Positions 14,694 through 64,000 of a DNA stretch of 64,000 bases are shown piece by piece. The translations under genes and the position numbers were made by a program. The notes beneath the pieces were generated by a model. That model did no database searches. It saw only the letters and a program-made list of their open reading frames with translations, and had not been told where the DNA came from. Numbering within the stretch: the stretch's first letter is position 1; each line of letters starts with the position of its first letter. The DNA is taken from positions 124,001 to 188,000 of the forward strand of contig NZ_NPBF01000018.1 of assembly GCF_002272135.1 (NCBI RefSeq). Reading direction: 5' to 3'. Source of the DNA: Virgibacillus sp. 7505. Lineage in GTDB: Bacteria > Bacillota > Bacilli > Bacillales > Amphibacillaceae.

Positions 14694-14735
14694 GCTCTTA
14701 TCCTGAAGCAAAAAGGATAAGAGCTTTCTCTTTTC
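14694..14735 (+). terminator. Rho-independent terminator after gudB
   Basis: GCTCTTATCC (14694-14703) pairs with GGATAAGAGC (14715-14724), followed by TTTCTCTTTTC. Confidence 0.8.
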
Positions 14736-14765
14736 TCGGGAAGAGGGATAGAAAGGAGCAGTACA

Positions 14766-43798: not shown

Positions 43799-43826
43799 AA
43801 AGGCATCCCGAGGGATGCCTTTTTTA
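43799..43826. terminator. Bidirectional terminator between yugP-like and pfpI-like genes
   Basis: AAAGGCATCCC and GGGATGCCTTT form the stem, with T-runs on both strands. Confidence 0.9.
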
Positions 43827-44348
43827 TTGTGCTTGTATGACCTTGATCAACTCTCGGAGGTAGTCGGGCAGATCAGGCGGCCGTCTGCTGCTGACAATAT
43901 GACCGTCTACGACAACAGCTTTATCATGCCATATCGCTCCTGCATTCGTCATGTCATCTTTTATTCCAGGAGTACTAGTGACATTTACACCTTCCAATAT
44001 GCCGGCAGAGATAAGCACCCACCCGGCATGGCAGATTTGACCGATTGCTTTCTTATGTGTGTGGAAATGACGGGTGATTTCCAATACACTTTGATAGCGG
44101 CGAAGTTTATCCGGTGACCATCCGCCAGGGACGAGCAAGGCATCATATTGATTCGGATCAACTTCATCAAACGTCAAATCAGAAGTCGCTGGAACCCCAT
44201 ACTTTCCTTTATAAGCAGTATTTGCTGACTCACCAGCTAAATACACTTCCGATCCTGCTTCGCGCAGCCGAAGTATTGGATACCACAATTCCAGATCCTC
44301 GAAATCATCACTGACAAACGATAGTATTTTCTTTCCAGTAAGTTCCAC
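43824..44348 (-). CDS. DJ-1/PfpI family protein (YfkM-like)
   Basis: A 174-residue class I glutamine-amidotransferase-like fold protein of the PfpI/YhbO/YfkM group. The nucleophilic elbow QICHAGWVLISAG holds the conserved Cys, and DFEDLELWYPI supplies the usual acidic residue. Members are general stress proteins with reported glyoxalase or deglycase activity. GTG 44348 has GAGAGGTGAG upstream. Before the insert described here, its 5' end would have lain about 75 bp from the yitT stop. Confidence 0.88.
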   Translation of the reverse strand: MELTGKKILSFVSDDFEDLELWYPILRLREAGSEVYLAGESANTAYKGKYGVPATSDLTFDEVDPNQYDALLVPGGWSPDKLRRYQSVLEITRHFHTHKKAIGQICHAGWVLISAGILEGVNVTSTPGIKDDMTNAGAIWHDKAVVVDGHIVSSRRPPDLPDYLRELIKVIQAQ

Positions 44349-44421
44349 GATCTCACCTCTCTCGATTATTCTTCTCCACTTTACCAATTCAAGTATCAAA
44401 ATGCATGCAAAACGTCAGTCG

Positions 44422-44473
44422 GTATTATACGGTTTTTTATTTTCATCCAGTGTAAACCCTTCTCCCATGACAT
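44422..44473. repeat. Left copy of a 52-bp direct repeat (yitT 3' end)
   Basis: Matches 45507-45558 in the same orientation with one mismatch (C at 44457, T at 45542). On the minus strand it encodes the last residues of YitT (MGEGFTLDENKKPYNT). The frame continues past the repeat to Asp and a TGA stop, so it is a second, orphan gene end. Confidence 0.95.
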
Positions 44474-44816
44474 ATTATTACTTCACGCTTTAAAAAAACT
44501 CGTAAGCATAAGTTTGCTTTGCTTTCATAGGCAGCTAGGTTTATCGATAAAGGTAGATTTCATGCTTTCTACGAATTATAATCAGTTTTAAATGAAATCA
44601 ACCGGTATCACTAATGTATTCATAGAAAAACTTTACTCTTATTAACAATGTTATAAATTTTAAAGTTCAAGTTTACTATCGATGAGTTTTATAAATAATA
44701 ACAGATTGAGAATATATAATAGAGATAATTATTAAATTCATATTTTTTGAAAATATTATCCATATTATCCAGTAAATATGTTAAGATTTACTTAAAATAT
44801 AAAAGGAGGAATAATT
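44474..44816. other. AT-rich non-coding stretch in the insert
   Basis: No gene seen. Composition is strongly AT, unlike other gaps here. A possible extended -10 (TG-T-TAAGAT) lies about 45 bp before the secreted-protein gene, but its -35 is poor. Confidence 0.55.
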
Positions 44817-45356
44817 ATGAAAAAAACAATAGGAAAAATATTTCTTTTAGGATTACTTGGCTTTGTAGCCTTTCTAATCTCTCCAACAGACAGTAAGGCT
44901 TACACAGAAGATAACGAGGGAGACTTTCCGGTCTACTATTTTGATACTAAAGAAGAGTTAGATGATTTTAAGCAAAATAGTGCAGTGGGGCAGTTAGCAA
45001 CCAATAAAGCTAATATTGAGAGTAATATGCTTAGAGCATCAGCAAAATCAACTTACAAAAAGTATTATTTTGGAAGTACATCATTCTCAAACTATATTTG
45101 GGTTGGGGGTTCTTCTAGGACATTCAACGGTCCACAATTTATGGATATCGAAAAGGGTGACAGAAAAAACCTTGAAGTGTGGATATATGATGGTAAAGGA
45201 AAATACCTAGGAAAAACTAAAATCAAAGATCGTTCAGGATGGGTTCATACCGACTTTTCTTATCTTACTGGAAAAGGATATAACTATAAGATAAAGCTTG
45301 TAAATACTAGTAGTGGTACCCAAAAACTAGTACAAGGCGAACTTTATTACTTTTAA
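44817..45356 (+). CDS. Secreted protein of unknown function in the insert
   Basis: 179 residues. A clear signal peptide (basic start, hydrophobic core about 9-22, cleavage likely after SKA near residue 28) is followed by an acidic stretch and a beta-rich C-terminal region (about 75-179) full of Tyr, Gly and Lys (for example YYFGSTSFSNYIWVGG, MDIEKGDRKNLEVWIYDGKG). It has no cysteine in the mature part and no lipobox, so it is likely released. It slightly recalls prophage-type small secreted proteins such as YolA, but I cannot confirm this. Codon use is AT-rich. GGAGG lies 9 nt or so before the ATG. Confidence 0.8.
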   Translation: MKKTIGKIFLLGLLGFVAFLISPTDSKAYTEDNEGDFPVYYFDTKEELDDFKQNSAVGQLATNKANIESNMLRASAKSTYKKYYFGSTSFSNYIWVGGSSRTFNGPQFMDIEKGDRKNLEVWIYDGKGKYLGKTKIKDRSGWVHTDFSYLTGKGYNYKIKLVNTSSGTQKLVQGELYYF

Positions 45357-45406
45357 AATCTATATATAGATTTATAGTTTAATTTAAAACTATGATATCT
45401 TTTATG

Positions 45407-45444
45407 AAAGGTGATTCCTAATTTACTTACTAGGGATCACCTTT
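45407..45444 (+). terminator. Hairpin after the secreted-protein gene
   Basis: AAAGGTGATTCCTA pairs with TAGGGATCACCTTT, 14 bp with one G-U. The T-run is poor (CGTATTG), so termination may be weak or the hairpin may work for both strands. Confidence 0.6.
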
Positions 45445-45499
45445 CGTATTGTAAAAAGAGAGAACTTATGACCCAATTCTATTTGCTATTTCATCTACA

Positions 45500-46372
45500 T
45501 TAATCTGTATTATACGGTTTTTTATTTTCATCCAGTGTAAATCCTTCTCCCATGACATCATGCACCTCGCTAAGGGCGACAAAGGCATGTGGATCGACTG
45601 AGGTGATAATCGCTTTCAGTCGGACGATTTCGTTCCGGGCGACGACACAGTAAAGCACATCGCGTTTTTCGCCTGTGAAGCTTCCTCTGCCATCAAGGAC
45701 CGTTACACCCCGGTCCATTTGCTTTAGTATCTGATTGGCTATATCTGCACTCTGACTCGAAATGATAGTTGCACCTCTTGCCGAGTAGGCGCCTTCTTGG
45801 ATAAAGTCGATGACTCTAGCGCCAACGAAGACAGCAACGAGTGTATACATACCGCGGATCAGATCAAGATAGGTAAGAACCGATGTGACAATAACAACGG
45901 CATCAAAGAGAAACATCGTCCGTCCCATCGTCCAGCCGGCATACTTGTTAGCAAGTCGGGCAATGATGTCGACTCCTCCGGTTGTACCGCCGAAGCGGAA
46001 GATGATACCGAGACCGACTCCTATGAATACGCCAGCTAAAAGTGAAGCAATCAGCAAATCGTTGCCTAAGTCAATATTAAATGAATATGTCTGGAATAAA
46101 CGCAGGAACAAGGAAACTGCCACTGTCCCGATGATTGTATAAACGAAAGTTGTCCGGCCAAGGAACTTCCAGCCGATCAGGAACAATGGAATATTCAGCA
46201 CCAGGTTCATAATTGCTGGATCCCAATCGAATTCGAATAGTAAAATAAGCGTTATCCCGGTGAATCCGCCTTCCCCAAGTTTATTGGCGATATTGAAATG
46301 GACGATACCGAACGAAAAGATAGCCGCGCCTAACAGAATGAACAGGATGTTCTTTATACGCAGTCTGAACAT
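45500..46372 (-). CDS. ypjC: YitT family membrane protein (DUF161/DUF2179; YpjC)
   Basis: 290 residues. Five or so membrane helices span about 8-165 (YitT/DUF161 domain), followed by a soluble DUF2179 domain (about 225-280, with TVLDGRGSFTGEKRDVLYCVVARNEI). Function is unknown in this family. The minus-strand ATG has TAGGAGGTAG upstream. Its last 19 codons or so occur a second time 1,085 bp downstream. Confidence 0.88.
   Translation of the reverse strand: MFRLRIKNILFILLGAAIFSFGIVHFNIANKLGEGGFTGITLILLFEFDWDPAIMNLVLNIPLFLIGWKFLGRTTFVYTIIGTVAVSLFLRLFQTYSFNIDLGNDLLIASLLAGVFIGVGLGIIFRFGGTTGGVDIIARLANKYAGWTMGRTMFLFDAVVIVTSVLTYLDLIRGMYTLVAVFVGARVIDFIQEGAYSARGATIISSQSADIANQILKQMDRGVTVLDGRGSFTGEKRDVLYCVVARNEIVRLKAIITSVDPHAFVALSEVHDVMGEGFTLDENKKPYNTD
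45507..45558. repeat. Right copy of the 52-bp direct repeat, within yitT
   Basis: The copy that is part of the intact yitT-family gene. Compared with the left copy, codons differ GGA/GGG and, just beyond the core, ACA/ACC, GAT/GAC and TAA/TGA; all keep the same product. Confidence 0.95.
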
Positions 46373-46404
46373 AATCTACCTCCTAAGATGACAATTCCTT
46401 CTAT

Positions 46405-46433
46405 ATTATAGACAACTATCCTTATCCCTACAA
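46405..46433 (-). promoter_or_regulatory. Sigma-A promoter of the yitT-family gene
   Basis: On the minus strand: TTGTAG, 17-bp spacer, TATAAT (complement of 46405-46410), about 32 bp before the ATG. Confidence 0.55.
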
Positions 46434-46456
46434 ATCTGCCAGATAGGTAAAAACAT

Positions 46457-46486
46457 TTGTCAAATGCCGTATTTTTAAGCTAACAT
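46457..46486 (+). promoter_or_regulatory. Promoter candidate for the mazG-dapB-mgsA operon
   Basis: TTGTCA (46457-46462), 18-bp spacer, TAACAT (46481-46486). The pair is back to back with the yitT promoter. Confidence 0.4.
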
Positions 46487-46516
46487 GGTAATGATATAGC
46501 GAAAGGAAGATCGCGA

Positions 46517-46867
46517 ATGAATACTACATATACGACAAAGGAAATACAAGCACGTGTCGACGCTTATATTTCCCAATTCAAAGAAGGTTATTTTTCACCG
46601 CTCAGCATGCTTGCCAGAATGACGGAAGAAGTAGGAGAGCTTGCAAGGGAAGTGAACCATACATATGGAGAAAAGCCGAAAAAAGCTAGTGAAGAAGCTA
46701 ATACAGTAGCAGATGAACTCGGAGATATTATATTCGTTATGACATGCTTTGCTAATTCCTTGAATATCGATCTATCGGATGCATTCGAAAAATCGATGAC
46801 GAAATTCGAAACAAGGGATAAAGACAGATGGACGAAGAAGACACAGGAGGACATACATAATGACTAA
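46517..46867 (+). CDS. ypjD: MazG-like nucleotide pyrophosphohydrolase (YpjD)
   Basis: 116 residues of the all-alpha NTP-PPase fold. Metal-binding motif [10 protein letters not shown] (ExxE) and the downstream [12 protein letters not shown] (ExxD) are intact. It probably hydrolyses non-canonical or excess NTPs to NMPs. It overlaps dapB by 8 nt, as in the ypjD-dapB pair of B. subtilis. Confidence 0.9.
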
Positions 46868-47666
46868 AGATACGATTAAAATTATTGTAGCGGGACCAAG
46901 GGGCAGAATGGGTTCGGAAGCATTGCAGCTTATCGATCGGACGGCTCATTTTGAGCTAGTGGCAGCAATTGACCGAAAAAACGGAGGAAAGCGGATCAGT
47001 GATATCGAAGGTTTGCCAGCGAGCGATGCATTCATCTACGAAGATGCTGCGGCGTGTTTAGATGAAGTGGAGGCAGATGTCCTTATCGACTTGACCATTC
47101 CGGAAACAGGCTACAAACATATGAAGCTCGCTATTGAACATGGTGTGCGTCCGGTAGTCGGTACTTCTGGTTTTACGGAAGAACAAGTAGAAGAGCTAGG
47201 GAAGCTTAGTGAAGAAAAAGGTATCGGAGCAATTATTGCACCAAACTTCGCAATTGGGGCAGTACTTATGATGCAATTCGCCAAGCAAGCAGCAAAATAC
47301 TTCCCAACAGTAGAAATCATTGAAAAGCATCATGATCAAAAACTGGATGCCCCAAGCGGTACGGCTGTGAAAACAGCTCAGCTGATCCAGGAAGTACGCG
47401 AACCAGCAAAGCAAGGACATCCGGATGAGAAAGAGACGATAGCTGGAGCACGTGGTGCAGATGTGGACGGCATGCGGATTCATAGTGTCCGTCTCCCAGG
47501 ACTCGTTGCCCACCAAGAAGTTATTTTCGGTGCACCAGGCGAGCAATTCACAGTTAAACATGATAGTTTTAACCGCGCATCCTTTATGTCAGGTGTAGAG
47601 CTGGCAGTGGACCGTGTCATGAAGATGGACATACTTGCATACGGATTAGAAAATATATTGGAATGA
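46860..47666 (+). CDS. dapB: 4-hydroxy-tetrahydrodipicolinate reductase
   Basis: A 268-residue NAD(P)H enzyme of lysine, meso-diaminopimelate and dipicolinate synthesis. Nucleotide motif is [12 protein letters not shown] (about 9-20), and the active-site signature [18 protein letters not shown] contains the catalytic His-His and Lys. It feeds both peptidoglycan and spore dipicolinic acid. Confidence 0.96.
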
Positions 47667-47676
47667 GGCGATAGAC

Positions 47677-48090
47677 ATGCATATTGCTTTAATTGCCCAT
47701 GATAAGAAAAAACCTGAAATGGTCCGTTTTACGGTCGCATATAAAGAAATGCTGAAGAAACATACCCTGTATGCAACAGGCACGACAGGCACTCGCATCA
47801 AAGAAGCAACAGGATTACCTGTGGAATTGTTCCAATCGGGCCCGCTTGGAGGCGATCAGCAGATTGGTGCAAGGATTGCAACGAATCAAATGGATCTGAT
47901 TATCTTTTTCAGGGATCCGCTCACTGCCCAGCCGCATGAACCTGATGTAAGTGCGCTAATGCGCTTATGTGATGTGCACCGTATTCCGCTGGCAACCAAT
48001 CTGGCAGCGGCCGAAATATTTATTCGCGGATTGGACCGTGGAGATTTCGATTGGCGCAAGATCATACGCGATCGTGAGCCCGAGCTATGA
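47677..48090 (+). CDS. mgsA: Methylglyoxal synthase
   Basis: 137 residues. It converts dihydroxyacetone phosphate to methylglyoxal and phosphate as a glycolytic bypass. Family signatures [21 protein letters not shown] and [15 protein letters not shown], with the catalytic Asp in GGDQQ, are present. It overlaps bshA by 4 nt. bshB1 (ypjG), which follows it in B. subtilis, is not here. Confidence 0.95.
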
Positions 48091-49214
48091 AAAAGCTGAA
48101 AATCGGTATCACTTGTTATCCGACGCTTGGCGGATCGGGCGTCATTGCGACAGAACTCGGGAAAAAACTAGCCAAAAAGGGACATGACATTCATTTCATT
48201 ACATCCAGTGTCCCTTTCCGGCTGGATATGCTGCTTCCGAATGTATTTTTCCATGAAGTCGAGATGAGTCATTATCCTGTCTTCCAATACCCGCCATACG
48301 ATTTGGTGCTGGCTAATAAAATGGCTGAGGTAATCGACGAAGAACAGCTCGATATCCTGCATGTCCATTATGCTGTTCCGCATGCTATATGTGCGATCTT
48401 AGCTAAGGCAATTGCCAAGCGGGATGTAAAGATTGTCACTACCCTGCACGGAACGGATATTACGGTGCTTGGAATTGATAATGGACTGCGCAAAATGATC
48501 ATTCATGCAATTGAAGAAAGTGATGTCGTCACTGCGGTATCACAAAGTCTCGTACAGCAGACAAGGGAAATGCTCGATGTCACTAGTCCAATCGACGTTG
48601 TCTACAACTTTGTGGATGAAGAAGTGTACCATCCTGCCGATGTACGTGACATTAGGCAGCAGTTCGGTATCGAAGAAAACGAAAAGGTACTCGTACATAT
48701 AAGCAATTTCCGTAAAGTGAAACGTGTACAGGATGTTGTACAGGTTTTTTCGTATGTACAGGAGAAACTGCCTGCCAAGCTGATGCTGATAGGGGACGGC
48801 CCGGAATACTCGGATATTCTGCGGGATGTACAGCAGCGTGGTCTCGAAGATAAAGTCTTATTTCTAGGTAAGCAGAATAATGTTGCTGCTCTTTTAAATA
48901 TGGCAGACATCATGCTGCTTCCTTCTGAAAAAGAGAGCTTCGGTTTGGTTCTTTTAGAAGCAATGGCCTGTGGGGTGCCATGTATCGGAACAGATGTCGG
49001 CGGCATACCAGAAGTCATACAGCACGGAAAGAATGGGTTTATAACGCAGCTTGGCGATGTAGAGCAAATGGGTTCCTTTGCAATGGATTTGCTGACAAAT
49101 GACAAACTGTGGCAGCAATTTTCCGCAGCATCCATTCAGTATGCTGCGGAAAACTTCCATTCTGATCAAATTGTTGCTCAATACGAAGCTATATATGAAG
49201 AGGTTTTGCAATGA
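48087..49214 (+). CDS. bshA: Bacillithiol glycosyltransferase BshA
   Basis: A 375-residue GT-B glycosyltransferase (GT4). N-terminal [19 protein letters not shown] and C-terminal [18 protein letters not shown] with the catalytic Glu-x7-Glu pattern are typical of BshA. It makes GlcNAc-malate from UDP-GlcNAc and L-malate, the first step of bacillithiol. ATGA overlaps on both sides link mgsA, bshA and cca. Confidence 0.94.
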
Positions 49215-50380
49215 AGATATTTGAAAAAGCCTTCCGGGTCATACAGCAACTCGAACAGCATGGTTATGAAGCATATCTGGTCGGAGGAGCGGTGAGGGAT
49301 TACCTTATCGGAAAAGCTGTCGGCGATTTGGATATTGCTACGTCAGCTACGCCGGATCAGGTAATAAAAGTCTTTGATAAAGTCATACCAATAGGTATCG
49401 AACATGGAACTGTTCTTGTGCGTTTTGAGCAGGAAAGCTTCGAAATTACAACCTTCCGAATAGAAGGCGCATATTCTGATTACCGGCATCCTGATAGCGT
49501 GAACTTTGTGACGGATGTAACAGCTGATCTTGCACGTCGTGATTATACAGTTAATGCGATAGCGATGGCCAGAACAGGGGAGTTAGTGGATCCTTTCGAT
49601 GGCAGGAGCGCTATCGAAAAGAAGGAGCTTGTTACGGTAGGCAAGGCCTTTGATCGTTTTCAAGAAGATCCTCTGCGTATGATGCGCGGTGTCCGGTTTG
49701 TTTCTCAGCTAGGGTACAAATTGGATCATGATGCACGAAAAGTGATGGAGGACCAGCGTCTGTGGTTAGCACGTATTGCAATTGAACGTGTAGCGATTGA
49801 AATGGAGAAATTATGCCGCGGCAAACATGTGAAGACAGCTGTACAGCTCCTGCAGGATACGGGATTATGGAAAGCAATGCCGATTTTTAGGAATCATCCT
49901 GAGCTGATGGGTGAGCTATCCAACAAAATTGTTCCTCTCGGCAGTTTAGCAGAATGGATCGCGCTTTGTTCTTTATTAAGCACAAGGCCAGTGCTTGATT
50001 GGGTAAAAGAGTGGAAGCTCTCCAATGCTGTCAAACAAGACGCTCAAAATTTGGTGCGCTTACTGCAAAGCGACATGGATGCTTGGGTGGTATATCAGTT
50101 GCCAGATCATCTGGATACTGGCTACTGCCGTCTTGTGAAAATTTATAAGGAAATAGATATTCAGGATGAGTTATCAACTTTGAGAGATTCACTTCCGATT
50201 CGAAATAGTTCGGAGCTGGCTATTTCCGGTTCAGACTTGATCAGCTGGTTCCCTGAAAGAAAGAAAGGAAGCTGGATCCGTGATCTGCTGCTCGCTGCGG
50301 AAAAAGCTGTGGTGGAAAACAGGGTGCCAAATGATAAAGAGCAGCTGAAGGAGTGGGTCTACAATGGACACGACACGTAA
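49211..50380 (+). CDS. cca: CCA tRNA nucleotidyltransferase
   Basis: A 389-residue class II CCA-adding enzyme. The active-site motif LVGGAVRDYLIGKAVGDLDIATSA (given partly, residues ~22-45) carries the catalytic DxD, and RRDYTVNAIAM and DPLRMMRGVRFVSQ follow. It adds CCA to tRNA 3' ends. It overlaps bshA by 4 nt and birA by 17 nt. Confidence 0.94.
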   Translation: MKIFEKAFRVIQQLEQHGYEAYLVGGAVRDYLIGKAVGDLDIATSATPDQVIKVFDKVIPIGIEHGTVLVRFEQESFEITTFRIEGAYSDYRHPDSVNFVTDVTADLARRDYTVNAIAMARTGELVDPFDGRSAIEKKELVTVGKAFDRFQEDPLRMMRGVRFVSQLGYKLDHDARKVMEDQRLWLARIAIERVAIEMEKLCRGKHVKTAVQLLQDTGLWKAMPIFRNHPELMGELSNKIVPLGSLAEWIALCSLLSTRPVLDWVKEWKLSNAVKQDAQNLVRLLQSDMDAWVVYQLPDHLDTGYCRLVKIYKEIDIQDELSTLRDSLPIRNSSELAISGSDLISWFPERKKGSWIRDLLLAAEKAVVENRVPNDKEQLKEWVYNGHDT

Positions 50381-51344
50381 TCGTCTTATAAGAATTCTCC
50401 AGGAACATAAGACGTCGTATGTTTCTGGCCAGAACCTATCCGATCAGCTCGGTATCTCAAGGGCAGCAGTCTGGAAGCATATGAAAGCGTTGGAAGCAGA
50501 CGGCTATGAAATAGATGCTGTTCCTCGCAAGGGATACCAAGTTAAGCGATCGCCGGACAAACTCAGCAAAAATACACTGAACTGGAAGCTGGATACGGAA
50601 TGGATCGGACGCAAGATCATCTTTGAAGAAGAGCTTGATTCTACCCAAGTTTTGGCGAAATCTTTGGCGGATCAAGGTGCAGTTCACGGAACTGTTGTCA
50701 TCGCTGATCAGCAGACAAGCGGTAAGGGAACAAAAGGGCGCAGTTGGCATTCACCAGCCGGAACCGGTATATGGATGAGTTTAATCATCCGGCCTGAATT
50801 TGGACCCCGGGAAGCAGCACAGCTGACGTTGGCTGCAGCGGTTGCCATCACACGCGTATTCCGTCAGAACGATATAGATGCTAGCATTAAATGGCCGAAT
50901 GATATCTATCTGGGCGGCAAGAAGCTCGCTGGAATACTGACCGAAATGCAGGCAGAGCAGGATTATATTCAGCATATCGTACTGGGTATCGGAATCAACA
51001 TCAATCAGACTGCGGCGGAATTAGCGCCGGATATCCGCGATAAAGCAACATCATTGCGTATCGAGACAGATAAGGAATGGAAGCGGCAAGAGCTCATTCA
51101 TATGATTTGGAAAGAGTTCGAGGATGTCTATTCGCTATACATAAAAAAAGGTTTCCACATTATCAGGAACGAATGGATGCAGTATGCTTTACGACTCGGG
51201 CACCGTGTGAAAGCAACTACTCCATCAACTGTCTTTTATGCAGTTTTCAAGGGAATCGGGGAAGACGGCGAGCTTATCCTTGAAAATGATGATGGCAGTA
51301 CACAGCGTTTGTATTCAGCTGAATTGGAATGGAGAGAGGAGTAA
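50364..51344 (+). CDS. birA: Bifunctional biotin ligase / biotin repressor BirA
   Basis: 326 residues. N-terminal winged HTH (about 5-62, [20 protein letters not shown]), biotin-protein ligase domain with the ATP-binding loop [14 protein letters not shown] (the GRGRRG-type loop), and a C-terminal SH3-like domain. It biotinylates carboxylases and, because the HTH is present, should repress biotin genes. It overlaps cca and is followed 4 bp later by panB. Confidence 0.94.
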
Positions 51345-51348
51345 CGAA

Positions 51349-52179
51349 ATGAAAACAAGACTCGATTTTCAGAAGATGAAAGAAAACAACGAGAAAATCA
51401 CTATGGTCACTGCCTATGATTATCCAACGGCAAAATTGGCGCAGCAGGCCGGTATCGATATGCTTCTTGTCGGCGACTCACTAGGGATGGTAGTGCTCGG
51501 TTATGATAGCACCATTCCCGTAACAGTGGATGATATGATTCATCATGGAAAAGCCGTCACTCGCGGTGGAAACGATACGTTCGTTGTAGTAGATATGCCA
51601 TTTATGACGTACCATGTATCGGTTGAGGCAACTATACCGCAAGCGAAACGCATCTTCCAGGAAACCGGAGCACAGGCTTTGAAGCTGGAAGGAGCAGATC
51701 AGGTCATCCTGGACAGCATCAAGGCATTAGCAACAGGCGGTATTCCAGTTGTAGGTCATCTTGGTCTGACACCGCAGTCAGTCCATATACTCGGGGGATA
51801 TAAAGTACAAGGGAAAAACGAACAGACAGCAAAACAGCTGCTGGAGGATGCACGCAAAGTTGAAGCAGCCGGAGCGATTGCAGTCGTGCTGGAGTGTGTA
51901 CCAAAGCAATTGGCCGCACTCATTGCCAAAGATATTTCTATTCCGGTCATCGGAATTGGTGCCGGTGCAGAAGTAGACGGACAAGTACTTGTCTTTCATG
52001 ACCTAAGTCGGTACGGTGTTGATCGTTTGCCGAAATTCGCTGTTAGCTATGCAGATCTAAATGAAACAGTTACGAATGTCTTCTCCACATATAAGGAAAA
52101 TGTAAAGAATGGTATTTTTCCGAATGACGGACAGAGTTTTACGATGGACGAAGCAGCATTACCTAAATTAGGAGAATGA
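51349..52179 (+). CDS. panB: 3-methyl-2-oxobutanoate hydroxymethyltransferase
   Basis: A 276-residue metal-dependent TIM-barrel enzyme, the first committed step of pantothenate synthesis. Motifs include [24 protein letters not shown] and LEGADQV. ATG 51349 follows GAGAGGAG. panB, panC and panD are contiguous. Confidence 0.96.
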
Positions 52180-52181
52180 AT

Positions 52182-53051
52182 ATGAAGATCATTTCGACAT
52201 TAGAAGCGTTGCAGCAAGAAAGAAAGCAACTGGCGAAGGAGCAGAAATCAATTGGTTATGTGGCTACGATGGGCTTTTTGCATGAAGGGCATCAATCCTT
52301 GATGAAGCGCTCCAAGGCAGAGAACGATATCACTGTGCTTAGCATTTTCGTAAATCCGCTGCAATTTGGTGAGGGCGAGGATTTTGAGACTTATCCGAGA
52401 GATGCAGTCCGTGATCTGGCTGTCGCGGAAGCAGAAGGCGTCGATATCGTCTTCATGCCAGAAGCAGCAGACATGTATCCAGGCAGCAGTACCATCAAAC
52501 TGCATGTTGCTGACAGAGTAGACGTGCTCTGCGGCAGATCAAGACCCGGTCATTTTGATGGTGTGGTTACTGTCTTATCGAAGCTTTTCCATTTGATTCA
52601 GCCGGACAGAGCGTATTTCGGGCTGAAGGATGCACAGCAAGTAGCAGTTGTACAAGCTTTGGTGCACGACCTTAATTTCCCGCTGGAAGTGGTTCCGGTA
52701 CCGACTGTGCGCGAGGCAGACGGATTAGCGAAAAGCAGCCGCAACGTCTATTTATCAGAGGAAGAGAGACAAGAAGCTCCAGCTATTCACCACGCACTGC
52801 AGCAAGCTAAACAAAGCATCCAAGATGGAACAAAGGATCCTGAAAAAGTAGCATCTGCTGTAAAAGAATTTATAAACAGCCAAACAAGTGGTAGAATAGA
52901 CTACGTTGAAATTTTGTCATATCCGGCCTTGAAGCCAGTCAGGGAAATAGATGAACGGATCATCATTGCTGCAGCTGTCTATTTCGACAAGGCAAGATTG
53001 ATCGACAATCTAGTATTAGAAGCTGATGGCTCCATCATGGACCGTTTTTAA
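52182..53051 (+). CDS. panC: Pantothenate synthetase
   Basis: 289 residues. It joins pantoate and beta-alanine using ATP. The HxGH motif of the nucleotidyltransferase fold is HEGH in MGFLHEGHQSLMKRS; SSRNVYLS is the KMSKS-like region. ATG 52182 is chosen, 7 nt from GGAG; ATG 52176, which overlaps the panB stop, is only 1 nt from it. Confidence 0.95.
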   Translation: MKIISTLEALQQERKQLAKEQKSIGYVATMGFLHEGHQSLMKRSKAENDITVLSIFVNPLQFGEGEDFETYPRDAVRDLAVAEAEGVDIVFMPEAADMYPGSSTIKLHVADRVDVLCGRSRPGHFDGVVTVLSKLFHLIQPDRAYFGLKDAQQVAVVQALVHDLNFPLEVVPVPTVREADGLAKSSRNVYLSEEERQEAPAIHHALQQAKQSIQDGTKDPEKVASAVKEFINSQTSGRIDYVEILSYPALKPVREIDERIIIAAAVYFDKARLIDNLVLEADGSIMDRF

Positions 53052-53068
53052 TATAGGGGGATAATAAG

Positions 53069-53455
53069 ATGTTTCGCACAATGATGAAGGCGAAGATACA
53101 TCGTGCTCGTGTCACGGAAGCAAACTTGAATTATGTTGGCAGTATTACGATCGATACGCACATTCTGGAACAAGTAGGCATACTTCCTCATGAAAAAGTG
53201 CAGATTGTGAACAATAATAATGGAGCTCGTCTCGAAACATATGTCATCCCCGGTGAGCGGCATAGCGGTGTCATCTGCCTAAACGGTGCTGCTGCACGTC
53301 TTGTACAAAAAGATGATGTAGTTATCATCGTTTCCTATGCCATGCTATCTGAAGAAGAACTGGCTGACTTCAAGCCAAAGATCGCCCTGATGAACGAAGA
53401 TAATACAGTTCAGGAAATCATCGAGGAAGAACCGCCGCTTACTGTTATGATGTAA
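53069..53455 (+). CDS. panD: Aspartate 1-decarboxylase proenzyme
   Basis: 128 residues. The self-cleavage site Gly24-Ser25 (YVGSITID) gives the pyruvoyl cofactor, with Tyr58-region [10 protein letters not shown] and NGAAAR conserved. It makes beta-alanine for PanC. It completes panBCD and is followed by a terminator. Confidence 0.96.
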
Positions 53456-53477
53456 CGGCATAAAAGAATCGTACGAT

Positions 53478-53511
53478 AAGACTCTTATCTGTGATAAGAG
53501 TCTTTCTTTTC
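53478..53511 (+). terminator. Rho-independent terminator after panD
   Basis: AAGACTCTTATC and GATAAGAGTCTT form a perfect 12-bp stem, loop TGT, then TCTTTTC. Confidence 0.85.
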
Positions 53512-53533
53512 TAAGCAGTATGGAGGGTGGAGT

Positions 53534-56299
53534 ATGGAAAAATTTGTAGTGGTGGATCTTGAAACAACAGGACATGCGCCGTCGAATGGCGATAAAATCA
53601 TAGAGGTCGGGATTGTCGTCATCCAAGGACGTGTGATCACAGATCAATTTCAGACGATGCTGGATCCCGGTATGCCGATTCCACCTTTCATCTCCCAACT
53701 GACAGGTATTACGGATGAAGATGTAGCTGGTGCTCCGCAATTTGAAGATGTAGCAGAAGAGATTTCTGCTTTCTTCAAAGATAGCTATGTGGTCGCTCAT
53801 AATGCGAATTTTGATTTGCGGTTTCTGAACAGCGCTCTGGAAGAGGCGGGACTAACTCCAATCCAGCGCCCAGTGCTGGATACGGTCGAGTTGGCGCGTA
53901 TTCTGCTGCCAACGGCACCGAGCTACAAATTAAGCGTTCTTAGTGAGCATCTTTCTTTTGAACATGATCAGCCTCACCGTGCGCTGTCCGATACGCTTGT
54001 AACGGCAGAACTCCTGCTGTCTCTACTTGATGAGCTAGGAAAGCTGCCTTATGAGACAATTTCTCATCTACTGACACTGGAACGCTCATTGAAGAGCGAT
54101 TTACGCGGCTTACTTGAGTACCGTTTGGAGGAACTTGCATTCGAGGATACACAAGACGATGGGCTTGAGGTTTATCGAGGGCTGGCATTTCGGAAAGTCC
54201 AGGAAGAAAATGATACTGTATCTGTTATTACCCAGTCTTTCGGTGAGATGGCGGATCAGCTGTATCAAAAGAGTGGCTGGCTTTCAGAGGGAATGGAGGG
54301 CTATGAGCCGAGAAAAAGTCAGCTGGAGATGAGTGAACAGATCTTTGATGTTTTCCAATCAAATAAACACGCTCTCCTGGAAGCAGAAACAGGTACCGGA
54401 AAGTCACTTGCTTATCTTTTGCCAGCAGTATACACAGCAGTTAAAGAAAAGAGCCGGATCGTTATCAGCACTCATTTGACTCAGCTGCAGGCACAATTGA
54501 TGGACAAGGAAATTCCGCTTTTACAGCGTATTCTGCCGTTTTCCTTTAAAGCTGCACTGCTGAAGGGAAAGCAGCATTATTTAAGTCTCAGCCGCTTCGA
54601 ATCAGAGCTTCAGCAAACAGCAAATGATAATTATGATATCGTACTTACAAAAGCGATTTTACTTGTATGGCTGACAATGACTGAAACTGGTGATATTGAT
54701 GAAGTGAATCTGCCTTCCAGCGGGAAGCGGTTTTTCCTGCATATGTCTGCGGATGCAGAGGATACGCAAGATCCATTTTCGCCATGGTTTTCCCGTTCGT
54801 TTTATCAGCGGGCAAAAAAAGCAGCATGGCAGGCAGATGTGATCGTGACGAACCATGCGCTGCTTTGCAGCGATATGCAAGAAGAATACCAGCTCCTGCC
54901 ATCGTATCAGCGAGCCATTATCGATGAGGCACATCATTTCGAGGCGACAGCCGCGAAGCATTTTGGATTGGCATTGGATTATGTGAGCATCCACCATATG
55001 CTGTCTCATGCGAATAAAGTATATGAGACAGCAACGGATGAGCTTCCAAATACACAAGCAGAGATGCTGATTTGGCAAAGTTTATGGGATCAGACTAAAG
55101 AAGAAGCAGATGACATGTTCCGCTACATCCATGATTTTGTCTTGTCCCAGCATAAAAAGAAGCTCGGAACCAACGACATCGGCAGATTACAGCTGCGGCT
55201 CGAGGATGTTCGGCAGACAAAGCAGGTCCTGGTAATAGCTGAAATGAGCAACAGATTATTATTTGGTGTGCGAGACTGTATCCACCATTTGCTTCAGCTG
55301 ACAAAATCCGCTGATAAGCAGGGGGATAAAAAGATTGCTGATTCCATTCGGAATGCAGTGGATCAGCTGCAGACAATCATTGATGCGATTGAACGGATGT
55401 TCCTTATGTATGACGATGAGGAAGTGAAATGGATAGAAGTCGATATGTACGGCGCGCGAAACGCTGTTTACTTGTACAGTGAACCATTAGAAATTGCAGA
55501 TTTGCTACTGGAACATTTCTTTTCGGAAAAGAAGAGTGTTGTGCTCACAAGTGCAACTTTAACAATGAAGCAATCGTTTGCTTTCATTCAGGAACAGCTA
55601 GGCTTGGATGAACACACCGTAACAAGACGTTTCGATTCTCCTTATTCTTATCAGGAGCAAGTACAGCTGCTTGTCCCAAATGATTTTCCGGACGTGCGAG
55701 GCAAGGATAACTATCCTTTCATTTATGCGGTTTGCGAATCGATTCTGAGCCTTGCAGCCATTACGGATGGGCGAATGCTAGTATTGTTCACTTCCTATGA
55801 TATGCTGAAAAAAGCTTATGGACTTGTGAAGGAATTGACAGAGGATCAGGATTATACTTTGATCGCCCAAGGTATTACGAGCGGCAGTCGTGATCGGCTG
55901 AAAAAGAATTTCCAAAGCAATAAGAAGGCCATCCTGTTCGGAACCAGCTCATTCTGGGAAGGCGTCGATATTCCTGGAGAAGATTTAAGCTGTCTCGTCA
56001 TTGTAAGGCTGCCATTCCAGCCTCCAGATCATCCGATTTATGAGGCAAAGGCAGCCAAATTGAAGGCAGAAGGAAAGAATGCCTTTATGGAGCTTGCATT
56101 ACCTAATGCCGTCATCCGCTTCAAGCAAGGGTTCGGCAGGCTGATTCGGTCATCCAGTGATAGAGGAATTGTGTTCGTTTGTGATGACAGGATGATGAAG
56201 ACAAGATATGGCAGTTACTTCACGGCTTCGATACCAGATGTACCCACACATTATAAGAGTACAGCTGAACTTTTGGAGCTAGCAGAGGAATGGCTATAA
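53534..56299 (+). CDS. dinG: DinG-family exonuclease-helicase
   Basis: 921 residues. The N-terminal DEDDh 3'-5' exonuclease (about 1-165) has VVDLETTG, AHNANFDLRFL and HRALSDT. The superfamily 2 helicase part has Walker A AETGTGKSLAYLLPA (near 285), DEAH box IIDEAHHFE and motif VI QGFGRLIRSSSDRG. The Fe-S cysteines of E. coli DinG are not evident, as in other Gram-positive forms where the nuclease is active and helicase activity is doubtful. GGAGGGTGGAGT precedes the ATG. Confidence 0.93.
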   Translation: MEKFVVVDLETTGHAPSNGDKIIEVGIVVIQGRVITDQFQTMLDPGMPIPPFISQLTGITDEDVAGAPQFEDVAEEISAFFKDSYVVAHNANFDLRFLNSALEEAGLTPIQRPVLDTVELARILLPTAPSYKLSVLSEHLSFEHDQPHRALSDTLVTAELLLSLLDELGKLPYETISHLLTLERSLKSDLRGLLEYRLEELAFEDTQDDGLEVYRGLAFRKVQEENDTVSVITQSFGEMADQLYQKSGWLSEGMEGYEPRKSQLEMSEQIFDVFQSNKHALLEAETGTGKSLAYLLPAVYTAVKEKSRIVISTHLTQLQAQLMDKEIPLLQRILPFSFKAALLKGKQHYLSLSRFESELQQTANDNYDIVLTKAILLVWLTMTETGDIDEVNLPSSGKRFFLHMSADAEDTQDPFSPWFSRSFYQRAKKAAWQADVIVTNHALLCSDMQEEYQLLPSYQRAIIDEAHHFEATAAKHFGLALDYVSIHHMLSHANKVYETATDELPNTQAEMLIWQSLWDQTKEEADDMFRYIHDFVLSQHKKKLGTNDIGRLQLRLEDVRQTKQVLVIAEMSNRLLFGVRDCIHHLLQLTKSADKQGDKKIADSIRNAVDQLQTIIDAIERMFLMYDDEEVKWIEVDMYGARNAVYLYSEPLEIADLLLEHFFSEKKSVVLTSATLTMKQSFAFIQEQLGLDEHTVTRRFDSPYSYQEQVQLLVPNDFPDVRGKDNYPFIYAVCESILSLAAITDGRMLVLFTSYDMLKKAYGLVKELTEDQDYTLIAQGITSGSRDRLKKNFQSNKKAILFGTSSFWEGVDIPGEDLSCLVIVRLPFQPPDHPIYEAKAAKLKAEGKNAFMELALPNAVIRFKQGFGRLIRSSSDRGIVFVCDDRMMKTRYGSYFTASIPDVPTHYKSTAELLELAEEWL

Positions 56300-56393
56300 A
56301 AAAAGTGCGCCACTAGGACGCACAACTGCTGGGGAGAAGGAAGATTTTTGTTGAAAAAACTTTGAACTCGTCTTAGAATTACACCAGTACAAC

Positions 56394-56402
56394 TGGTATA
56401 AT
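56394..56402 (+). promoter_or_regulatory. Extended -10 promoter for ypmA-ypmB-asnS
   Basis: TG-G-TATAAT at 56394-56402, a perfect extended -10, about 98 bp before the ypmA ATG. The -35 region is weak. It follows a small ACCAGT/ACTGGT inverted repeat. Confidence 0.55.
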
Positions 56403-56499
56403 AAGAATTGGATTGCTTCTCAACATACATTAGTTTGCTGCAGAAAGCCATCTCTATGAGTAACAAATCATGTAAATGAATTGCTCGGAGGTAACGATG

Positions 56500-56673
56500 A
56501 TGGAAAATAATAAGATGGAGACATTGTCCACTGTACGTGTACAATACAGCAGCGACCTGTACAAGCTGGTTGACTCACTGAACCGTACACTGAAAGAGAA
56601 GGACTTAATGTTCGGATTAGCATTGGATGAGGAAGATCATGATACGGCGATATTCACGATTTACCGTACCTAA
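56500..56673 (+). CDS. ypmA: YpmA family small protein
   Basis: A 57-residue acidic protein that closely resembles B. subtilis YpmA (LSTVRVQYSSDLYKLVDSLNRTLKE and LMFGLALDEEDH, shown in part). The function is unknown. The second of two adjacent ATGs is taken, 8 nt from GGAGG. Its end overlaps ypmB by 35 nt. Confidence 0.85.
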   Translation: MENNKMETLSTVRVQYSSDLYKLVDSLNRTLKEKDLMFGLALDEEDHDTAIFTIYRT

Positions 56674-57169
56674 ATGGGCAAAGATCACAATTTTCAGTGC
56701 TTTAGCAGTTTTGATCATTGTCCTCGGCTGCGGTATATACGTTTATAGCACAGCACAAAATGCACGAACAGAGGGCTTTGAAGCTTCAGAGGACTTTGCA
56801 CTTGATAATACGGATCTAGAAACCGCAGATGAAGTGACACGCTTCAATGGCGAACATGTATATCATGTCGTCAAAGGCAAGCAGGCTGATGGAGAAGATG
56901 CTATCGCTTATGTCAAAAAGGGCGAGAAGGATCCTAAGCAGATCATTTATACAACAGATACTGCTGATGAACAGCAAGCAGAAAGCAGCTGGCAGTCAGC
57001 GTGCGGAGCGGACTGTCAATTGGATGATGTCCGGCTCGGATTGTACGATGATGCACCAGCATGGGAATTCACATTCCGCGATGGACAGGATCGCCTCGGC
57101 TACAGTTATTACACACTAGATGGCACCGAGCAGCTGGAAAGCTATGCTCTATCCAACCAATATCAATAA
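56639..57169 (+). CDS. ypmB: YpmB family membrane-anchored protein
   Basis: 176 residues. A short basic start, one membrane helix (about 16-37), and an extracytoplasmic PepSY-like domain (about 60-175, VYHVVKGKQADGEDAIAYV) of the YpmB/DUF5590 family. Function is unknown. ATG 56639 is 6 nt from GAGG inside ypmA; ATG 56627 lacks a site. In B. subtilis aspB follows; here asnS does. Confidence 0.8.
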   Translation: MIRRYSRFTVPKWAKITIFSALAVLIIVLGCGIYVYSTAQNARTEGFEASEDFALDNTDLETADEVTRFNGEHVYHVVKGKQADGEDAIAYVKKGEKDPKQIIYTTDTADEQQAESSWQSACGADCQLDDVRLGLYDDAPAWEFTFRDGQDRLGYSYYTLDGTEQLESYALSNQYQ

Positions 57170-57208
57170 TATAACTACATATGTAGGACAGACAATGGAG
57201 GGTTCTTT

Positions 57209-58501
57209 TTGAAGACAACGATCGCAAAGCTTAGTGAGCATGTAGGAGAAGAAGTAACAATCGGAGCGTGGCTCCGCAACAAACGTTCCAGCGGTAAAAT
57301 TGCATTTTTACAGCTGCGTGACGGAACTGGATTTGTACAAGGTGTTGTCGTGAAAAGCGACGTATCTGAGGAAGTGTTCCAGACAGCCAAGAACATGACA
57401 CAGGAAACTTCCCTTTATGTTACAGGAAAAGTAGTAGAGGACAGCCGTTCTTCCTTCGGTTATGAAATCCAGGTCAGTGATGTGGAAGTAATCCATGCAG
57501 CAACAGATTACCCGATCACACCAAAAGAGCATGGAACTGAATTCTTGATGGACAACCGCCATCTGTGGCTTCGTTCCCAAAAACAGCATGCGGTGATGAA
57601 AATCCGTAATGAAATCATCCGTGCAACGTATGAATACTTCCATGAAAATGGCTATACGAAAATCGATCCGCCAATTCTGACAGGTTCCTCTGCAGAAGGT
57701 ACGACGGAATTGTTCCATACAAAATACTTCGACGAAGAAGCATATCTATCACAAAGCGGACAGCTTTACATGGAAGCAGCTGCAATGGCATTCAACAAAG
57801 TATTCTCCTTTGGTCCGACATTCCGTGCAGAAAAATCCAAAACTAGACGTCATTTGATCGAATTTTGGATGATTGAGCCGGAAATGGCTTTCGTTGAACA
57901 CGAAGAAAGCTTGGAAATCCAGGAGAACTACATCAGTCACCTAGTTGCTTCTGTACTGAAGAATTGCAAACTGGACCTTGAAATCCTTGGACGCGATACA
58001 GAGAAATTGGCTAAAGTTACTGCGCCATTCCCGCGCATCACGTACGACAAAGCGATCGAATTATTGAAGGAAAAAGGGTTTGATGATATTGAGTGGGGTG
58101 AAGATTTCGGAGCACCGCATGAGACTGCGATTGCTGAAAGCTTCGACAAGCCAGTATTCATCACGCATTACCCAGCTGCAATCAAAGCATTCTACATGAA
58201 GCCAGATCCGAATCGGGAAGATGTCGTGCTTTGTGCAGATTTGATTGCTCCAGAAGGCTATGGCGAAATCATCGGCGGATCTCAGCGTATCGATGATCTT
58301 GAATTGATGGAAAAACGCTACGAAGAACATAACCTGACTAGCGATGCGTACAACTGGTACTTGGAATTACGCAAGTACGGCAGTGTGCCACACTCAGGCT
58401 TTGGTCTTGGTCTGGAGCGGACAGTCGCTTGGCTTTCCGGAGTGGAGCACGTTCGCGAAACTATACCATTCCCACGTCTTTTGAACCGTCTATACCCATA
58501 A
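57209..58501 (+). CDS. asnS: Asparaginyl-tRNA synthetase
   Basis: A 430-residue class IIb synthetase. The OB-fold anticodon-binding domain (about 1-105) is followed by the catalytic core with motif 2 [19 protein letters not shown] and motif 3 [15 protein letters not shown]. It charges tRNA-Asn directly. The start is TTG 57209, 6 nt after GGAGGG. No T-box leader is seen. Confidence 0.96.
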
Positions 58502-58518
58502 TAAATAGATTACCTGAC

Positions 58519-58544
58519 GATCCCTTGTCGAATGACGAGGGATT
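58519..58544 (+). other. Hairpin between asnS and dnaD
   Basis: GATCCCTTGTC and GACGAGGGATT form 11 bp with two G-U pairs and loop GAAT, but no T-run follows. It could be an mRNA-processing or weak termination site. Confidence 0.45.
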
Positions 58545-58570
58545 GTCCTATTAATGGAAGGAGAACCCAG

Positions 58571-59278
58571 ATGAATAACGACTTGAATTACCAACGAATG
58601 CTGGGAAATCCATTTTCCTTTCCCGGTATTTTGATGAATAGATATGTATCCCTTGGATTGAATGAAACGGAAATGATGGTCATTTTGCATATTTGCTTCT
58701 TCCAGCAGCAAGGTATCATGTTTCCGACAACAGATCAACTTGCCAAAAAAGTAACGCTTTCCGAAAGAGATGTAGCCTTAGTTTTACGCAAGCTCGTTCA
58801 GCGTAATATGCTGCAGATTGAAGATGTGCAGGAAGAAAATGTGCGAAGCCAAGCTTACAGTCTGAACGGATTATGGCATCTCGCGTTTGCAGAAACCGTG
58901 TATCCTGAACCAGAAAAGAATACAGACAAAGAAGAAGAGGCTGCAATATTCATTCTTTTTGAGCAGGAATTCGGCCGTCCATTGTCACCTTTTGAAATAG
59001 AAACGGTCACATTATGGCTCGATGAAGACATGCAGCCGCCATCCCTCATTAAAGCTGCTTTGCGAGAAGCAGTACTAATGAGTAAATTGAATTTCCGCTA
59101 TATAGATCGTATTTTGCGTGAATGGAAGCGTAAAGGTATCCGATCCGTAGACCATGCTCGCAAGGAAAGTAAATCATTTCATGAGAACCAGCGGCCTACA
59201 GCAGCTGCAGTACGTTCAGAGCAGCAAGCACCAGCCCGTGATGTAAGTATTTACTATAACTGGCTGGAAGAAGATTGA
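58571..59278 (+). CDS. dnaD: DNA replication initiation protein DnaD
   Basis: A 235-residue protein with an N-terminal winged-helix DDBH1 domain (about 10-100) and a C-terminal DDBH2 DNA-binding domain (about 125-195, LSPFEIETVTLWLDE). It acts at oriC and in primosome restart with DnaB and DnaI. ATG 58571 follows GGAAGGAGAACCCAG. nth follows 15 bp later. Confidence 0.93.
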   Translation: MNNDLNYQRMLGNPFSFPGILMNRYVSLGLNETEMMVILHICFFQQQGIMFPTTDQLAKKVTLSERDVALVLRKLVQRNMLQIEDVQEENVRSQAYSLNGLWHLAFAETVYPEPEKNTDKEEEAAIFILFEQEFGRPLSPFEIETVTLWLDEDMQPPSLIKAALREAVLMSKLNFRYIDRILREWKRKGIRSVDHARKESKSFHENQRPTAAAVRSEQQAPARDVSIYYNWLEED

Positions 59279-59293
59279 GGAGGAAAGCATACA

Positions 59294-59947
59294 ATGCTGA
59301 ACAAAACACAGATACGACGGGCATTGGATGCGATGCGAGACATGTTCCCAGAAGCAGCATGTGAACTGGTCCACCGTAATCCATTCGAGCTGGTGATCGC
59401 CGTACTGCTGTCTGCGCAGTGTACCGATAACCTTGTCAATAAAGTAACGAAAGATCTGTTCGAAAAATATAAGACACCGGAAGACTATCTAGCTGTTCCG
59501 CTTGAAGAGCTGCAGCATGATATTCGTTCTATCGGCCTTTATCGCAACAAGGCGAAAAATATCCAGAAGCTTTGTCAGACGCTGCTTGATCAATACGATG
59601 GAATTGTCCCAGACACACGTGATGAACTAGTCAAGCTAGCTGGAGTAGGGCGCAAGACAGCCAATGTGGTAGCATCGGTTGCTTTCAACGAGCCTGCCAT
59701 TGCTGTAGATACCCACGTTGAGCGTGTATCCAAACGGCTCGGTTTTTGCCGCTGGAAGGACAACGTAACCGAAGTAGAAAACACATTGATGAAAAAGGTA
59801 CCACGTGATGAGTGGAGCGATACACATCACCGCATGATCTTTTTCGGACGCTATCATTGTAAAGCAAGAAACCCAAACTGTCTGGCATGTCCCTTGAACG
59901 ACATTTGCCGGGAAGGCAGGAAACGTCTGAAGGCCGAATCAAATTAA
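59294..59947 (+). CDS. nth: Endonuclease III
   Basis: A 217-residue bifunctional DNA glycosylase/AP lyase for oxidised pyrimidines. The helix-hairpin-helix LAGVGRKTANVVASVAF with the catalytic Lys, the catalytic Asp in AVDTHVERV, and the Fe-S cluster C-x6-C-x2-C-x5-C (CKARNPNCLACPLNDIC) are all present. Confidence 0.97.
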   Translation: MLNKTQIRRALDAMRDMFPEAACELVHRNPFELVIAVLLSAQCTDNLVNKVTKDLFEKYKTPEDYLAVPLEELQHDIRSIGLYRNKAKNIQKLCQTLLDQYDGIVPDTRDELVKLAGVGRKTANVVASVAFNEPAIAVDTHVERVSKRLGFCRWKDNVTEVENTLMKKVPRDEWSDTHHRMIFFGRYHCKARNPNCLACPLNDICREGRKRLKAESN

Positions 59948-59985
59948 AAGACAGTCACTCCAAATTGAAGTGACTGTCTTTTTTT
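59948..59985. terminator. Bidirectional terminator between nth and ponA
   Basis: AAGACAGTCACT and AGTGACTGTCTT form a perfect 12-bp stem, then TTTTT. It sits between converging genes. Confidence 0.92.
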
Positions 59986-59998
59986 GTTTGATATTTTG

Positions 59999-62623: not shown

Positions 62624-63231
62624 TACTCCTCTTCCTCCGTTCTAAAATGAAGCTGGTCGATAATGTGTAAGTAATCGACCTTTGCCTGATACTTCATTGG
62701 AATCAGAAATCCTTGCTCACAAATCACTTCGTAGGGAATGGATTTTCTGCCTCCATCATATTGACGTTTCCACCACGGAAAAAGTTTCTCTGCTTCGAAA
62801 AAAAATGTTTGATTATGTGCGGAAAAACGCATAATGACGAAGCAGATAGCCCCATGGCTGCATACATGCTCCATGTGGGAAATCTGGTGCTCGTGGAAAT
62901 TGGAGAGCGGGAAACTGGTCTTGTTTTTGGTGACCTTGGCTTCGAAGTCTACATATTTTCCGCGATATACGCCATTATAATCCGTAGTGGATGCTTGTTT
63001 GAAATACGCTTCTTTAATGACCGCTGCACTTCGTTTTGGATAGTCGACCTTGACAATCTGCACCGGGGTAGGTTTTTTGTGGATGATAGCCTTTTGCTGA
63101 GCGAGATAATACTCGTTTGTCTCATTGATATCTTCCTCTAAAGTCATCCCTCTGTTGCCGAAGTCGACAGGCTGTGTGAGCCTCGATGCAGCAGTTTGTC
63201 TGATGATCTTTTTCCCGTTAGGATATTGCAC
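62623..63231 (-). CDS. recU: Holliday-junction resolvase RecU
   Basis: A 202-residue (B. subtilis 206) RuvC-type replacement for Gram-positives. The catalytic core includes STTDYNGVYRGKYVDFEAK with the acidic triad and KNKTSFPLSNFHEHQ. It cleaves Holliday junctions and modulates RecA, and aids chromosome segregation. A longer frame exists to 63330, but GTG 63231 follows GGGGGGAG and gives the conserved VQYPNGKK start. Confidence 0.93.
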   Translation of the reverse strand: MQYPNGKKIIRQTAASRLTQPVDFGNRGMTLEEDINETNEYYLAQQKAIIHKKPTPVQIVKVDYPKRSAAVIKEAYFKQASTTDYNGVYRGKYVDFEAKVTKNKTSFPLSNFHEHQISHMEHVCSHGAICFVIMRFSAHNQTFFFEAEKLFPWWKRQYDGGRKSIPYEVICEQGFLIPMKYQAKVDYLHIIDQLHFRTEEEE

Positions 63232-63256
63232 AGTTTCTCCCCCCACTATAGGAATG

Positions 63257-63265
63257 ATCATACCA
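63257..63265 (-). promoter_or_regulatory. Extended -10 promoter candidate for recU-ponA
   Basis: On the minus strand TG-G-TATGAT, about 26 bp before the recU GTG. The -35 is poor (GTGAAG at 17 bp). Confidence 0.4.
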
Positions 63266-63323
63266 TAATCCTTAGAATACTTCACTTTGTGTCTGTAACT
63301 CAACTGAAAAAAGGGGCAATTCG

Positions 63324-64000
63324 ATGACAATTACTGACATAGCACAATTGCTTTCTTCCATCGAAGAGAAAACAGCCGCTGCAAACTTAGATAATATCCG
63401 AAGAACGATGGCATATCAAGCTTTTTATGAACGGAATCCAGAGATAAAGTGGGCATTCCTGGCTTCCATGGTTTCTAGGAACGCTGGCTGGAATATGACA
63501 GATTTACATTTGGATATGTTTCAGGACTTACTGTCAGCACGTATAAGAAAACAGCTTTTTTCTCTTTACGAACGTGCCAATTGGCTCATTTTCTCTGATG
63601 CTTATCCGCAGTTGCTGTTGTATGAGTCACATAAAAAAGGACAAATTGACATGATTGCACTTCTTCATCATTTTCGTGTGTCTGCTTTTATGGAAGAAAC
63701 GTGGAAGCAATTCATAAAAGAAGGTGACATGCAGCAGCTGCTGTACTGCCTTATCGTCAACGAACAGCATGTCATCGGCTCGCCTGTCATCGTCCAGCCG
63801 TTCTATAAAAAGCATGTCTTCAGCCGCTGGCCATATCAGCTTCAAGATTTTTTTCGTTTGAATACTGTGTTCTTCCCGACAATGGATGGGGAGTTGTACG
63901 GACTGTATGCTCACCATTTTACAAGTGTGGATGAGCGAATACAGATGGGGAAGAAGTTGAGCCAGCTCCTTTTTGACGACCAGCTTTATCCCGCATTTAT
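63324..64000 (+). CDS. yppC: YppC family protein (DUF2515), N-terminal part
   Basis: The frame is open from ATG 63324 to the right edge, giving 225 residues of a family of about 320. It has the DUF2515 pattern (NIRRTMAYQAFYERNPEIKWAFLA in part, then NAGWNMTDLHL and LYERANWLIFSDAYPQLL). It is cytoplasmic with no membrane helix, and function is unknown. AAAAGGGG lies 7 nt before the ATG. It is divergent from recU, as in B. subtilis. Confidence 0.85.
   Translation, partial: MTITDIAQLLSSIEEKTAAANLDNIRRTMAYQAFYERNPEIKWAFLASMVSRNAGWNMTDLHLDMFQDLLSARIRKQLFSLYERANWLIFSDAYPQLLLYESHKKGQIDMIALLHHFRVSAFMEETWKQFIKEGDMQQLLYCLIVNEQHVIGSPVIVQPFYKKHVFSRWPYQLQDFFRLNTVFFPTMDGELYGLYAHHFTSVDERIQMGKKLSQLLFDDQLYPAF

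Follow-up and report, generated by a model that had tools for sequence, protein, structure and literature searches.

Cis-mobilizable elements (CIMEs), as described in PMC5704250, possess attL/attR-like flanks at the 3' end of a gene and carry no integration or transfer genes. In Dehalococcoides, genomic islands located at the 3' end of ssrA have a direct repeat of the target end at their boundary, and the integration module is missing from some of them (PMC3146451). Islands and prophages specific for dusA enter a core protein gene and supply the gene end that they replace (PMC4482086). In the 64-kb window considered here (the whole stretch of DNA that was analysed), a small insert is found at the 3' end of yitT. 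Comparison of its junctions with empty sites suggests that a circle, on which an imitation of the yitT end served as attP, probably integrated into the 3' end of the gene by a single conservative, site-specific crossover.

The target gene, coding for a YitT-family membrane protein (45500..46372, minus strand), was recognized by its ORF and Pfam matches (YitT_membrane, 2e-55; DUF2179, 1.3e-23); it is intact, and its last codons are foreign when compared with the empty sites. Its native downstream neighbour, identified by ORF and family matches, is a DJ-1/PfpI-family gene on the same strand (43824..44399, minus), which adjoins yitT in nine empty sites. A direct repeat of 62 nt, 92% identical, was found in the window at 44412-44473 and 45497-45558, with a start-to-start distance of 1,085 bp; it is not a chance similarity, since BLAST gives it E-values of about 1e-19 to 1e-20. 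The two copies differ at five positions (left/right: 44414/45499, 44416/45501, 44418/45503, 44421/45506, and 44457/45542). An earlier note on this DNA had pointed to a 52-bp repeat with one mismatch, which was confirmed as the core of this repeat (44422-44473 and 45507-45558), and to four differences near the yitT end, which are indeed silent when read on the minus strand (GGG/GGA, ACC/ACA, GAC/GAT, and TGA/TAA); the fifth mismatch is located directly past the yitT stop codon. A search of the left copy against its own genome gave matches at two places alone, the left and the right copies, and the left copy forms a 19-aa open frame that adjoins the DJ-1/PfpI-family gene. It thus does not belong to a longer yitT duplication in tandem, which had been named as an observation that would overturn the interpretation; the tail alone is duplicated.

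The search within the genus comprised ten genomes: that of the window itself, a second one from its species (G167), and eight from elsewhere in the genus. The insert is absent in all nine genomes other than its own, G167 included, and the yitT 3' end runs there into the flank on the pfpI side. Relatives without 44474-45558, which the earlier note proposed to look for, are therefore available, and were obtained in 9 of 9 cases; the proposal that the cargo is foreign is supported as well. When the window was aligned with G167, two blocks were obtained, 1-44473 (98.2%) and 45504-63998 (95.9%), so that, relative to this strain, the window has no large insertion other than the insert, which is exactly 1,085 bp long. 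Divergence beside it is ordinary, with 11 mismatches in approximately 970 aligned bases in the bin 44001-46000 and 9-42 mismatches per kb in all remaining 2-kb bins but one. These values bear on the possibility that a transformed linear fragment, consisting of a foreign yitT tail and the cargo, was captured with one end joined by homology and the other illegitimately. Such a capture would require no enzyme, and the single base that marks the upstream half of the junctions (44457, see below) could be a chance mutation; however, there is no excess divergence around the insert, and replacement alone would leave the native tail unduplicated, so that an extra exchange between sister chromosomes would be required. 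Linear capture is considered improbable. A separate observation concerns the bin 60001-62000, inside an ORF at 59999-62623 (minus strand), where the two same-species strains differ by 140.5 mismatches per kb with 38 gap columns, compared to 5.5-41.5 mismatches per kb in the remaining 2-kb bins; judged by eye, this ORF resembles a penicillin-binding protein whose long acidic tail is of low complexity.

The structure of the junctions becomes apparent when the coding strand is read against the empty site of G167, which has GGA ... ACC GAC TGA. In the window, the right copy reads GGA ... ACA GAT TAA and the left copy GGG ... ACC GAC TGA. The right copy, by the yitT body (45500..45558, minus strand), is native down to 45542 (GGA) and foreign from 45506 to the stop codon, and the left copy (44412..44473, minus strand) is foreign at 44457 (GGG) and native from 44421 down, including the flank. 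By this comparison both copies read as mosaics, the right one native upstream and foreign downstream and the left one the reverse. It was previously suggested that one copy is a native and the other an imported allele; this did not survive, since each copy is mixed relative to G167, although an origin of the ending outside the species gains from its resemblance to yitT of other genus members. Selection on both copies, also postulated, is not needed because the left copy has ceased to belong to a gene. All four silent differences are explained by one reciprocal exchange within 35 identical bases, 45507-45541 in the right copy (minus strand; the same in both copies and in G167) and 44422-44456 in the left (minus strand; delimited by comparison of the copies), which form the required crossover zone. 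It follows that GGG ... ACA GAT TAA must have been present on the incoming circle. The downstream half of the mosaic is the firmer one, as it consists of three silent changes and the restored T-D-stop; the chance of obtaining T-D-stop from a sequence of the insert's composition is about 0.0018, and it is found at 3 of 2052 insert positions. The upstream half has a single marker base, 44457, and this base may instead have mutated later, within the stranded copy. The left copy also bears, upstream of this marker, the 16 bases ATGTCATGGGAGAAGG, so the element's own copy spans 52 bp. The central proposal of the earlier note, an integration at the 3' end by which that end is restored, is supported by the empty sites together with the restored T-D-stop, and the earlier reading as a whole, right in its main idea, is corrected in detail.

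The presence of a direct repeat on both sides of the insert, in a genome that is divided into 578 contigs, could also point to a transposon-type target duplication or to an assembly artefact. Yet the copies left by target duplication are expected to be identical, whereas here each of them mixes native and foreign bases; moreover, no transposase is found in the insert, and 52 bp is far above the length of usual target duplications, which are far shorter. An assembly artefact, in turn, would not bring its own silent gene ending. Both possibilities are regarded as highly improbable.

In the preferred explanation, integration by a site-specific crossover, the incoming circular DNA would have had 1,085 bp as now, or more if genes have since been lost, and would have contained one gene for a secreted protein and, as attP, the imitation of the last yitT codons. 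One conservative crossover of attP with attB, the yitT 3' end, would have occurred inside the 35-bp identical stretch; the element would thereby supply the last codons and the stop codon of yitT and displace the old end about 1.1 kb downstream. The gene would have remained intact because the element brought these replacement codons. A single crossover with a circle is proposed since it leaves two copies of the shared stretch, both of them hybrid, while the stretch stays single in a simple linear replacement. We infer that a site-specific enzyme made the crossover, a tyrosine-type integrase that acted in trans or has since been lost. Long identity between attP and attB suggests an enzyme of this class; against it stands the finding that the inverted repeat in the core is no better than in shuffled sequences (387 and 287 of 500 shuffles equal it).

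The same hybrid junctions would be yielded by homologous recombination, in which a non-replicating circle with the yitT tail of a related species enters by one RecA-type crossover (Campbell type), and from the sequence alone the two kinds of exchange are inseparable. The ending ACA GAT TAA is also that of yitT in one other-species genome (G003), and in the seven remaining other-species genomes of the genus yitT ends with ACA or ACG, GAC or GAT, and TAG or TAA, so the imitation tail may derive from the yitT of another species. The identity with G003 also fits homologous recombination, and in this respect it counts against the site-specific explanation. However, the shared stretch has just 52 bp with one mismatch, and efficient recombination in Bacillus usually needs approximately 70 bp. 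Within the 35 bp, the copy brought by the insert has the sequence of its own host, and all eight other-species genomes differ there. The captured piece would, in addition, have to restore the protein exactly by coincidence. Homologous integration is considered distinctly unlikely, and site-specific exchange is favoured because the element brings just a gene end, by which the protein is restored, and because the stretch in common is short.

Further evidence was sought in sister insertions and in integrases. With the 19-aa tail as query, matches were obtained in 120 of 159 family genomes, two each in the own genome and in G133, and in 369 of 397 order genomes, two each in the own genome, G262, and G485. 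None of these proved to be a second detached tail, as both frames are long in G133 (260 and 309 aa) and the frames in G262 and G485 have 294-311 aa. No second detached yitT tail was found in the 159 family genomes, nor among the matches listed for the 397 order genomes, in a search in which diverged tails escape detection and, for the order, single matches in short frames can escape. Strains with other cargo at the yitT 3' end, for which the earlier note proposed to look, were likewise not encountered in the family and order tail searches. Two candidates with shortened frames were rejected. In G103 (21-aa frame) yitT lies over two frames at its usual place with no insert, and in G168 (132-aa frame) yitT residues 174-286 alone were found, so the front of the gene, not its end, is missing. 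On the G103 contig (C1, L050 8879-9741), the distribution of yitT over more than one reading frame points to a pseudogene or to sequencing errors.

The search that it proposed for the core next to integrase genes gave no such case in phages, plasmids, viral contigs, or genus genomes. Phages gave Listeria matches and weak Vibrio matches to the core and otherwise none, and the one Listeria phage record examined is an UNVERIFIED wastewater contig with no annotation. In the plasmid collection there was one Listeria record, with the core match at an annotated YitT gene. Viral contigs contained no core by the pattern used and no relative by a yitT profile. In the ten genus genomes no integrase is located beside yitT, the nearest tyrosine recombinase of the searched Pfam family being at least ~62-66 kb away. 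The own genome has two tyrosine recombinases of Xer-like length, a broken one (C31), and, at the edge of contig C14, a 392-aa enzyme whose gene sits among others named by eye as phage-type; in positions 1-15,000 and 62,000-81,634 of this 81,634-bp contig, no match longer than 15 bp to a 121-bp query around the core was present. Contig C14 (L053 1-15000) starts 34 bases beyond the gene for the 392-aa recombinase, followed by phage-type genes, and its edge may be the attachment site. Full-text literature searches returned no paper that joins yitT with an integrase and an attachment site, nor with an integration site, prophage, and Bacillus. The failure to find a known integrase for the yitT site in the genus genomes, phages, and viral contigs searched weighs against the preferred explanation.

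The unique part of the insert (44474..45506) is AT-rich, with inner windows of ~28-32% GC compared to ~40-49% outside. In agreement with the earlier note, no integrase, transposase, or recombinase was detected in it by Pfam, and its one ORF is accompanied by six short open stretches that have no Pfam match; no remnant genes were seen. The ORF is the cargo gene (44817..45356, plus strand), encoding a 179-aa protein with an N terminus that, judged by eye, resembles a signal peptide. A strong hairpin is located between the convergent cargo and yitT genes (45403..45448; the folding energy of 45396-45460 is -26.2 and -21.9 kcal/mol on its two strands) and is possibly a terminator; it has no T run and is absent from the terminator-scan list. 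Rfam gave no match in 44300-46600. The cargo protein matched no family in Pfam, NCBIfam, PHROGs, or PADLOC, its comparison with solved structures gave a best E of 0.022, and the structure predicted by a single-sequence model (mean pLDDT 47.8) is too poor for fold comparison. Its C-terminal region of about 100 residues is common to other secreted-looking proteins. Relatives are rare; they occur in 3 of 159 family genomes including its own, one of the two others having an internal stop, and in 8 of 397 order genomes including its own, several of them weak: the match in G228 has six internal stops, and those in G330 and G355 are partial and lie inside much longer proteins. Four plasmid records contain relatives (31-43% identity), and none were found in the genome_contigs collection, phages, or viral contigs. 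On two of these plasmids, from Priestia megaterium (L057 4866-9527 and L058 4758-10004), the relative is upstream of small genes with no known function, an ABC transporter, and a MauE/DoxX gene, followed by a redoxin gene in the L058 cluster, an order of genes reminiscent of an export or bacteriocin cluster. The third has its relative near an LXG-toxin gene and the fourth near spore-germination and other genes. As a guess, the product may act outside the cell, perhaps in competition. For the 1,033-bp unique part, 29 non-own family genomes matched with pieces of 27-56 bp alone, mostly at a ribosome-binding site and gene start; as donor DNA, phages offered a single 5% match and plasmids none.

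For the history of the element, decay of a larger island is tentatively proposed, falling short of a probable account but likelier than movement in trans, which seems somewhat unlikely. Small one-gene circles whose recombinase is encoded elsewhere are known as integron cassettes and Xer-type (pdif) modules, and the islet would be like them if it were a minimal cassette of ~1.1 kb, with one gene, its own attP, and a replacement gene ending, that depends for its movement entirely on a foreign integrase acting in trans. This is judged unlikely; if true, it would mean integron-like cassette traffic, but with the 3' end of a core protein gene as the landing site, and with ~1 kb and a single gene it would place the minimum that such an element needs at a low value.

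Several known kinds of element differ from the islet. The insert has no integrase of its own, as an autonomous element (prophage, ICE, or IME) would, nor the transposase and identical target duplication of a transposon. No dif-like core was seen in a comparison with the Bacillus dif (best 13 of 28, where 80-bp bins of the window give an average best of 13.3), which separates it from Xer/dif-type modules. As in the ssrA islands, a repeat of the target 3' end bounds the islet, and, as in some of them, the integration module is lacking, but those islands, according to PMC3146451, have an RNA-gene target, a serine recombinase, a 20-bp repeat, and tandem arrays, whereas here the target is a protein gene, the core has 52 bp, and the islet is single. 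With the dusA islands it shares a place within a core protein gene and the supply of a replacement end; those, as reported in PMC4482086, insert at the 5' end, with sites of 21 bp, and encode an integrase in every case, while the islet is at the 3' end and has none. The CIMEs of PMC5704250 are similar in their attL/attR-like repeats at a gene 3' end, and here both flanks are retained, the upstream side being marked by one base alone. Integration and conjugation genes are absent from the islet as well, and its single ORF has no known family; it differs in having just ~1.1 kb, one gene, and yitT as its target, and no sister ICE or IME with its att site was found in the searches. The closest known kind thus appears to be the CIME, with the islet as a very small member of the integrase-less islets. 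Its insertion into a 3' end, resolved to the base, presents an element that rewrites the end of its target gene and leaves the protein unchanged, and it indicates that integrase-less islets can be recognized by their hybrid junctions, given a near-identical empty site.
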